This document shows, one piece after another, positions 22,283 through 23,141 of a stretch of 34,496 nucleotides of DNA. Made by a program: the position numbers and the translations under genes. How positions within the stretch are numbered: position 1 is the first letter of the stretch; every line of letters begins with the position of its first letter. This DNA comes from an uncultured Bacteroidota bacterium (GTDB lineage Bacteria > Bacteroidota > Bacteroidia > Chitinophagales > Saprospiraceae), in NCBI GenBank assembly GCA_937861115.1, contig CALMBD010000117.1, forward strand, positions 1 to 34,496, read 5' to 3'. The notes under the pieces were generated by a model. The model was not told the origin of the DNA and made no database searches. It worked only from the letters and a program-made list of their open reading frames with translations.

Positions 22283-22301
22283 TGATGATACCACTTTGTA
22301 C

Positions 22302-22399
22302 ACCGGAATGGCATTCCGGCAAAACAACACTGAGACTTGTACCCCGGAATGGTATTCCGGCAAAACAACACTGAGACCGGAATACCATTCCGGGGTACA
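22302..22399. repeat. CCGGAATGG palindromic repeat cluster upstream of mqnC
   Basis: There are three related palindromes. The first is CCGGAATG-G-CATTCCGG (22303-22319). The second starts 41 bases later at 22344 and, together with the following CAAAACAACACTGAGA, forms a near-identical direct repeat of the first unit. The third (22377-22393) is inverted relative to the second, so 22338-22360 and 22377-22399 are perfect 23-base inverted arms around a 16-base loop. It lies in the presumed mqnC leader. It may be a second REP-like family or an RNA regulatory structure. Confidence 0.85.
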
Positions 22400-22451: not shown

Positions 22452-22486
22452 TAGTGACGGGGTGACTTTGAGTCACCCCGTCACTA
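22452..22486. repeat. REP-like 35-nt palindrome, 3' side of RAYT gene
   Basis: Arms TAGTGACGGGGTGACT and AGTCACCCCGTCACTA (16 bp, perfect) around TTG. It lies 17 bases beyond the RAYT stop. Compared with the other two copies, positions 5-6 are GA paired with TC. Confidence 0.93.
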
Positions 22487-22503
22487 CTCTGATGAAGGCA
22501 GAT

Positions 22504-23079
22504 TCAACAATTCCTTAGCCAAAGCCACAGTGCACAAAGTCCCGCGCCGTAGCCCGCATAATCTTTCGCCGACGAATAAACCCAATCCTCCGGCTTGAGT
22601 ACTAAATGCGCTTCTACGGGGTTATTGTGGATGTACAAAAAACACTGATAGCCGTAGTCGCTTGCCGCACCGAAGCGATATTTTTTGTAATCCGTGTCCG
22701 TAATCAACGGTGGTATCCAGCCATCTTTGGCCTTGGTTTCTTCTCTAAAAAGACTCCCACTCCGATTTTCCTGCTTATTGATGGCGCGCGTATAAGAGCG
22801 CAGCAAAATGCCAATGGATTCATTGAGCGTCATGGCCCGCCCACTCGTAATCATAGTATCGGGGTGACTTGAAGTCACCCCGATACTAATATGCCGGACA
22901 TAAAAAAGCCAATGAAAATGGTTCGGCATGAGGCAATACGCCAGAAAATCGCCGTAAGGCAACAGGTGTTTGCGCATTTTTCGCAGGAAGAACAGGTAAT
23001 TTTCATCCTTGAAAAAAATAGGTTGACGGTTGTTCCCCTGGTTGTAGATGTGGAATATCGTGTCCGGGTAAAAAGTCAT
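22504..23079 (-). CDS. REP-associated tyrosine transposase (RAYT, Y1/IS200-like family)
   Basis: A 191-residue Y1-type HUH endonuclease. It has the family start FYPDTIFHIYNQGNNRQPIF, the FLAYCLMPNHFHWLFYV core with the HUH metal motif H54-F-H56, the helix LNESIGILLRSYTRAIN, SGSLFREETKAK, and the C-terminal YIHNNPVEAHLV (catalytic-Tyr region) plus PEDWVYSSAKDY. It is full length and without frameshift, so potentially active. Residues 64-75 (ISIGVTSSHPDT) are encoded by a palindrome of the same family as the flanking ones, inserted between the HUH strand and the next helix; this is a variable loop, so activity could survive. RAYT enzymes bind and cleave REP hairpins as single strands. A weak CATCTTTG at 23158-23165 (minus) may be its -7 element. 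Confidence 0.9.
   Translation of the reverse strand: MTFYPDTIFHIYNQGNNRQPIFFKDENYLFFLRKMRKHLLPYGDFLAYCLMPNHFHWLFYVRHISIGVTSSHPDTMITSGRAMTLNESIGILLRSYTRAINKQENRSGSLFREETKAKDGWIPPLITDTDYKKYRFGAASDYGYQCFLYIHNNPVEAHLVLKPEDWVYSSAKDYAGYGAGLCALWLWLRNC
22854..22888. repeat. REP-like 35-nt palindrome inside the RAYT coding region
   Basis: Arms TAGTATCGGGGTGACTT and AAGTCACCCCGATACTA (17 bp, perfect) around a single G. Positions 5-6 are AT paired with AT. It is translated in frame as part of the RAYT protein without a stop codon. Its 35-base length is the same as the outer copies. Confidence 0.93.
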
Positions 23080-23106
23080 ACCATTTGATTTAGTGCTAAT
23101 ATTACC

Positions 23107-23141
23107 TAGTAACGGGGTGACTCAAAGTCACCCCGTTACTA
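23107..23141. repeat. REP-like 35-nt palindrome, 5' side of RAYT gene
   Basis: Arms TAGTAACGGGGTGACT and AGTCACCCCGTTACTA (16 bp, perfect) around CAA. Positions 5-6 are AA paired with TT. It lies 27 bases upstream of the RAYT start codon. The remaining 95 bases to the MATE operator hold no gene. Confidence 0.93.

Follow-up and report, generated by a model that had tools for sequence, protein, structure and literature searches.

Copy-specific, complementary arms in the palindromes of a Bacteroidota RAYT locus and their possible origin by template switching

Introduction

It is standard practice to take covariation between the sides of a stem as evidence for a selected fold. The locus described here, on a 34,496-nt stretch of DNA from an uncultured bacterium of the Saprospiraceae (the window, by which we mean that whole stretch), carries a RAYT gene with three 35-nt palindromes around and within it, whose arms vary from copy to copy and pair perfectly in each. 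A preliminary description took this covariation as what is expected if the folded single strand is the selected form. The locus thus raises the question of how the arms are matched, by selection for pairing or by the copying of one arm from the other, and a dispersed, multi-copy hairpin family makes these two explanations testable in bacteria.

The RAYT gene and its palindromes in the window

The gene at the center of the locus is a RAYT, as had been proposed; the REP_Tyr_transpos profile (NF047646) matched all 18 aligned members of the family, the window protein included, at E <= 1e-3. The window protein itself scored 39.1 bits (E 6e-10), which is below the curated cut-off of 80 bits, and a profile match to the TnpA_REP structure 4er8 was obtained at E 0.005; Pfam Y1_Tnp matched 5 of the 18 members, the window protein not being among them. 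The HUH motif reads NHFH (residues 53–56; 22912–22923) and the candidate catalytic tyrosine is Y149, within YIHNNP. In the alignment of the 18 members (A1), H54 and H56 are invariant and Y149 is nearly so. W166 is also invariant and is followed by V in the window protein, by E in 11 of 18 members and by Q in 1 of 18, so that to regard it as the W of the WQ motif of subclass 2.4 is a guess. The reading frame of the window gene diverges from the family after AKDYAG (window 22504–22545), and family-like residues (TLC..LAKELL) are found in another frame, which may mean a slightly degraded copy or a miscalled base.

Table 1. Features of the RAYT island in the window.
Feature	Position	Strand	Remarks
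35-nt perfect palindrome, 3' side of the RAYT gene	22452..22486		TAGT GA CGGGGTGACT ttg AGTCACCCCG TC ACTA
RAYT (TnpA_REP, Y1 HUH transposase) ORF, 191 aa	22504..23079	-	HUH motif and candidate Tyr
35-nt perfect palindrome, in frame within the RAYT gene	22854..22888		Pair AT/AT, spacer tga, codons 64–76
35-nt perfect palindrome, 5' side of the RAYT gene	23107..23141		Pair AA/TT, spacer caa

The three palindromes were confirmed at their positions (Table 1), each with 16-nt arms and 0 mismatches, and the variable pair at positions 5–6 (GA/TC, AT/AT, and AA/TT) was the same as reported before. Their centers were also said to differ, which holds (TTG, TGA, and CAA), but the TTGAA given earlier counts paired bases as spacer. 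The TTG of the 3' copy is the reverse complement of the CAA of the 5' copy. The window contains 7 matches to CGGGGTGACT with up to 1 mismatch, where 2.0 would be expected and 1 of 100 shuffles gets 7; the 6 exact matches are the six palindrome arms, and the folding z-scores of the three palindromes as single-stranded DNA are -9.2 to -9.6; the six exact matches and the z-scores are well beyond chance. The matches in Rfam, to models of microRNAs and small RNAs, all stayed below threshold, and we read them as chance matches on hairpins. The middle palindrome is translated in frame as about SIGVTSSHPDT and sits where the internal hairpins of the RAYT group usually do.

A second palindromic repeat lies directly beyond the first palindrome (window 22296–22399), where CCGGAATnnnATTCCGG occurs three times, as two tandem 41-nt units and one inverted unit. 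Among the fetched loci, this repeat was found only in those that span the same site.

A hairpin family of the genus

If the island has a REP sequence of its own, as the preliminary description suggested, further copies would be expected, outside genes and with complementary arms. As to number, this was borne out in a congener, which carries 92 copies, and hardly in the window's own genome (5.71 Mb), where exact CGGGGTGACTNNNAGTCACCCCG occurs 5 times, 3 of them in the window, and a search with a shorter core at up to 3 mismatches added 1 match with 1 mismatch and 2 with 3 mismatches, the last two being excluded from the copy count. Placement and pairing agreed with expectation. All three own-genome copies outside the window lie outside the long ORFs and adjoin a gene 3' end, two between convergent gene ends and the third shortly after the first gene of a tandem pair (shorter overlapping ORFs of the opposite strand being disregarded), and the arms remain complementary in nearly all copies.

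Among 60 genomes, the window's own included, a RAYT was detected at E <= 1e-10 in 29, and GGTGACTNNNAGTCACC in 16, all of them of the window's genus, while the reversed-pattern control was found in 0 genomes of the genus and once each in two other genomes of the order. This RAYT has a hairpin family of its own, confined to the genus among the 60 genomes. Copies number 92 in G006, 31 in G021, 24 in G010, 18 in G026, and 5 in G000; dispersed, and amplified in some genomes, the hairpins look like a mobile element family. Within the genus, GGTGACTNNNAGTCACC was present in 9 of 11 genomes with a RAYT at E <= 1e-29 vs. 7 of 26 without one (Fisher p 0.003, relatedness being ignored and the E-value limit having been chosen after the list was seen). 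Many of the G006 copies (L170–L199) lie inside a larger shared unit (gttgcggta, the 35 nt, then agcttggcgctttgcc), so that the G006 element lies in, or carries, another repeat. G016 has a different core, GTCATCNGATGACTNNNAGTCATCNGATGAC, with 91 copies (<=3 mismatches) and 0 in five other genomes searched. A separate inverted repeat of the ACCGCAGAGGCGC type (L134, L151, L306, L307, L318) is found repeatedly in G021, G017, and G029, where it and the RAYT hairpins share sites.

The best 80 of 542 named RAYT loci, a few of which repeat genomes already in the set, all bear Bacteroidota-type titles except one "uncultured bacterium." A hairpin of score >=13 was found within 300 nt or inside the gene in 42 of these best 80 of 542 loci, and no such hairpin in the other 38. 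In the same best 80 of 542, hairpin density near the RAYT genes was 14 times that of distant flanks, and ACTnnnAGT stood at the exact center of 51 of 80 near-RAYT hairpins. An internal hairpin was present in 19 of the best 80 of 542 relatives, and 18 of 20 such hairpins start at codon index 63–71.

The window's own genome has three further RAYTs, of which L008 is flanked by two 74-nt perfect palindromes (1273–1346 and 2190–2263) that start with TAGTGGTGGCACAT and show mirrored differences; the relatives L018 and L050 have palindromes of 82–98 nt, most with similar ends and different middles. L009 has palindromes of the ACCTATAAGGTTTT type, and at L007 no hairpin of the size sought was found, only imperfect repeats by eye. 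The frame of a RAYT fragment in G037 (L060) reads repeated TFEVSDIYNIYNN, like several tandem palindromes within the gene, and at a second locus of that genome (L013) a single palindrome has this core. In G008, a RAYT gene contains a nested palindrome of 95 nt (L062, 1394–1488), the arms of which repeat a shorter hairpin of the same family.

Outer arms are specific to the copy

Pairing was measured by the distance k from the palindrome center in 46 of the 92 copies of G006, all 31 of G021, and 50 of the 91 of G016. In G006 the 35-nt element ends at k=17, where pairing is 0.72, and at k=18 pairing is already down to background, at 0.33; it stays at 0.71–0.90 up to k=32 in G021 and at >=0.80 up to k=42 in G016. 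When the left arm was set against the right arm of another copy as a control, pairing was mostly about 0.3 (0.24–0.59 beyond the core). Extended arms are common in G021 and in G016 but rare in G006, and G000 has none: arms reach at least 3 nt past the element in 26 of 31 copies of G021 (by 4–42 nt), 5 of 46 of G006, and 0 of 5 of G000, and 49 of the 50 examined copies of G016 (of 91) extend 3–44 nt past a 31-nt core, with arms up to 59 nt. The arms of 10 of the 31 G021 copies are identical to those of the window's first copy.

These outer arms are largely unrelated to each other. Left arms differ between long-armed copies by 62% on average in G021 (22 of 31 copies) and by 65% in G016 (39 of 50), whereas the two arms within one long-armed copy disagree at 0.8 and 1.4% of positions, respectively, a within-copy mismatch of about 1% that comes from copies picked for their long arms. 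When all copies are taken, short-armed ones included, the unpaired cells amount to 17% in G021 (k=18–28) and 9% in G016 (k=17–40); for arms taken from different copies the figure is roughly 70%. Subfamilies exist among the G016 arms, and some pairs are identical, indicating that part of the outer arm is inherited and that not all of it is fresh flank. Two such palindromes with 40–41-nt arms and a common core are also present in Spirosoma arboris HMF4905, the record of which is titled as a strain, and their outer arms of about 28–30 nt differ from each other.

At one site of G021 (L133), an arm was found to run through the end of a host gene. Two convergent genes, one through each arm, both end in VLV and a stop codon there. 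The C-terminus of the right-hand gene (KKVLV, then stop) is alike in G017 (RKVVI, then stop) and G029 (RKVVM, then stop), and G029 is without the palindrome at the stop, having a different hairpin about 20 nt past it; that arm therefore reads as host gene. The left gene has a C-terminus that is variable among the orthologues seen, and the other arm, from which the left gene has its last codons and stop, reads as an inverted copy of the host gene end. The element is present at the same gene end in G017, with a shorter arm and a different neighbor gene, so the G017 contig may be rearranged or chimeric at this point.

Mirrored and one-sided changes in orthologous copies

Three orthologous copies could be compared between G021 and G017. 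Of their 73 arm pairs, 64 are unchanged, 5 carry mirrored changes (3 of which come from a single site), and 4 carry one-sided changes, 3 of them at the outermost one or two pairs. The flanks of the three sites (about 100 nt or more aligned) are 76–96% identical, and compared with the 5 mirrored changes seen, chance would give 0.24 at a divergence of 10% (P 6e-6) and 1.4 at one of 24% (P 0.014). The G017 arms at these sites are separated by N gaps, which means that they were read apart. Two comparisons are excluded from the 73 pairs: L136 at 1156 vs. L219 at 1495, which has an indel (by eye, 1 mirrored and at least 1 one-sided change), and L164 vs. L222, in which a 15-nt difference may represent either inverted copying or a tandem duplication.

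Some spacers are inverted. TTG has become CAA within the coding palindrome of two RAYTs whose loci are about 90% identical (L261 vs. L265), CAA has become TTG upstream (L261 vs. L266, the latter with a decayed coding palindrome), and GCC has become GGC between L164 and L222. The spacers of L070/L218 and L133/L215 are not inverted, and other orthologous spacers merely differ. An inverted spacer could also arise if the hairpin flipped as a whole. The comparison of orthologues thus shows both marks of template-switch hairpins, mirrored changes and inverted spacers, in small numbers and with some spacers uninverted.

No clean empty site was found for L133, L134, L151, or L158 in G017 or G029. At L134 both relatives carry another inverted repeat, and at L158 the end of the G017 contig falls within the palindrome, and a match in G029 was obtained for one flank only. 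The G029 site of L151 is without either arm and the G017 site is filled with repeats and Ns; the arm sequence may have come with the core or before it. The nearest to a before/after pair is L133, though the neighbor differs in G017 and another hairpin is present in G029.

How the arms are matched

The best explanation, to which we give a probability of roughly 0.55, is that the island is a REPtron of the 2.4 type whose arms are matched mainly by template-switch re-synthesis of one from the other. The mechanism is most likely replication template switching at the RAYT hairpin, because its known footprints include substitutions mirrored between the arms, arms made perfect whatever their sequence, a lengthened stem, and an inverted spacer; template switching was described to homogenize the arms of inverted repeats and to invert spacers (PMC8604942; PMC8794818, in the parts available). 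The conserved hairpin tip, ACTnnnAGT with a G+C-rich inner stem, would presumably be recognized by the RAYT. At a replication fork, the nascent strand may fold back on the hairpin or hop to the other arm, copy it, and return, and if one arm were re-synthesized from the other in this manner now and then, the arms would stay complementary. A mutation in one arm would be turned into a mirrored pair and the spacer could be inverted, and copying past the hairpin foot would produce an inverted copy of the adjoining DNA, by which the palindrome would grow copy-specific arms. The role of fork and polymerase, the direction of copying, and the recognition of the core by the RAYT are what we infer here. 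Such templating suggests how RAYT hairpins stay perfect and lengthen, and how they can change the C-termini encoded by the genes beside them. Why extension is common in G021 and G016 and not in G006 and G000 is not accounted for by plain template switching. The SbcD profile (TIGR00619), compared with tolerance of long palindromes, gave no readable pattern (of 60 genomes, 11 exceed the cut-off, 35 have weaker matches, and 14 have none), and G000, G006, G016, and G021 all have weak matches.

We also put forward, tentatively and at somewhat less than even odds, the more general proposal that RAYT-type hairpins are seeds of self-extending palindromes, their sides being copied repeatedly by template switching at the fork or by the RAYT, with covariation as a by-product. 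If this is true, neighboring host DNA is converted into inverted arms that match perfectly over up to about 59 nt, neighboring gene ends are rewritten, and the hairpin recognized by the RAYT is perfected anew.

The reading of the preliminary description, that covariation shows the folded strand to be selected, is not supported in this form, since the copy-specific outer arms, the host gene end, the mirrored substitutions, and the inverted spacers are explained more simply by templating. Selection for pairing, with the folded strand (DNA for the RAYT, or RNA) as the selected form and the arms matched by stepwise compensatory mutations, an explanation also suggested for REPINs, is unlikely to be the main cause. 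Compensatory changes have been described for REPIN spacers (PMC3116915, in the part available), the exact central position of ACTnnnAGT in the hairpins near RAYTs, noted above for the best 80 of 542 loci, fits a selected fold, and the 4 one-sided changes among 9 changed orthologue pairs are what stepwise change would leave. Mirrored changes also recur at outer stem positions across 82 copies, but there (k=9–16) the 656 cells include 88 double changes against 15 unpaired ones, a ratio that speaks against selection, although with 51 distinct 35-mers among the 82 copies the cells do not count as independent events. Pairing is equally good in outer arms that have no relation to those of other copies, a host gene end among them, and selection would have to act on copy-specific arms in copy after copy. 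Moreover, G021 keeps its 31 copies while the palindrome of its sole RAYT at E <= 1e-10 is built on a different core.

That last observation also weighs against copying primed by the RAYT itself, in which a nick at the hairpin foot on single-stranded DNA would let the 3' end fold back and prime on the adjoining strand, and insertions or excisions would thereby create new inverted arms from the flank; G021 is a long-armed genome. TnpA_REP cuts single-stranded DNA beside its own hairpin (PMC8266576, in the part available), the hairpins are concentrated near RAYT genes in the best 80 of 542 loci, as given above, and extension varies by genome as an element-specific process would. However, orthologous copies change mirror-fashion in place, for which transposition is unnecessary, and G006, with 92 copies and a RAYT with the same core, has mostly unextended arms; we consider this explanation quite improbable. 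An artefact, in which assemblers turn back on themselves at palindromes and so invent an inverted copy of the flank, is very improbable indeed. It is true that G021 is titled as a MAG, that G016, G017, and G006 consist of 560–660 contigs each, and that G017 contigs or scaffolds break or carry Ns at these palindromes. However, arms across N gaps are each joined to a unique flank of their own and still complement one another, with mirrored changes, long internal palindromes leave the RAYT frame open (L014, 101 nt; L019, 85 nt), the S. arboris record titled as a strain has two such palindromes, and G006, likewise in 560 contigs, is unextended in 41 of 46 copies.

Comparison with known systems

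Judging from its motifs and layout, the window island appears to be a REPtron of the subclass 2.4 / RAYT group 4 kind. TnpA_REP proteins of subclass 2.4 were described in Bacteroidetes and Cyanobacteria, with REPs that flank tnpA_REP and insert in frame inside it (Quentin et al., 2018; PMC6006769, in the part available), so that the layout seen here was already published for this subclass. The NHFH and YIHNNP of the window protein fit the NH[IFV]H and YIxNNP of that subclass (Table 1 of PMC6006769), and the middle palindrome lies in frame between HUH and Y. The feet of the window hairpins are TTAG, ATAG, and CTAG, unlike the GTAG/GTGG foot described there, and since they have neither GTAG nor GTGG, we do not class them as canonical GTAG REPs; a GTAG foot is present in the copies of some relatives (L011, L132, L180). 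Growth of the palindrome into copy-specific arms is unmentioned in the available part of that paper.

REPINs are likewise RAYT-associated hairpin families with compensatory changes (Bertels and Rainey, 2011; PMC3116915), but a REPIN, as defined in the available text, consists of two inverted REPs around a spacer, whereas the unit of the window is one perfect palindrome with a 3-nt spacer. The GTAG/CGTC intragenic REPs (Di Nocera et al., 2013; PMC3733652) resemble the present family in that they occur in ORFs, with a terminal TAG as stop, and are sited after genes and between convergent genes; copy-specific outer arms are absent from the account available to us. In the open-licence literature (supplements excluded), we found no report of copy-specific, flank-derived arms on REP/RAYT palindromes, nor of RAYT-hairpin covariation read as templated.

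Outside the REP systems, the long, perfect coding palindromes of Nematomorpha mitochondria (2019; PMC6649704) have arms that evolve in concert, and template switching was proposed for them; they differ in being mitochondrial and in having both arms encode conserved protein, and no transposase is named in the part of that paper available. Similar in process are template-switch hairpins (Monttinen and Loytynoja, 2022; PMC8794818) and the homogenization of arms with inversion of the spacer in yeast (Abraham and Hazkani-Covo, 2021; PMC8604942), in which one event makes or perfects a stem, mirrors its changes, and may invert its spacer. As far as the available parts of these papers go, those hairpins are single sites in RNA or protein genes, whereas the palindromes described here form a dispersed family with tens of copies per genome.
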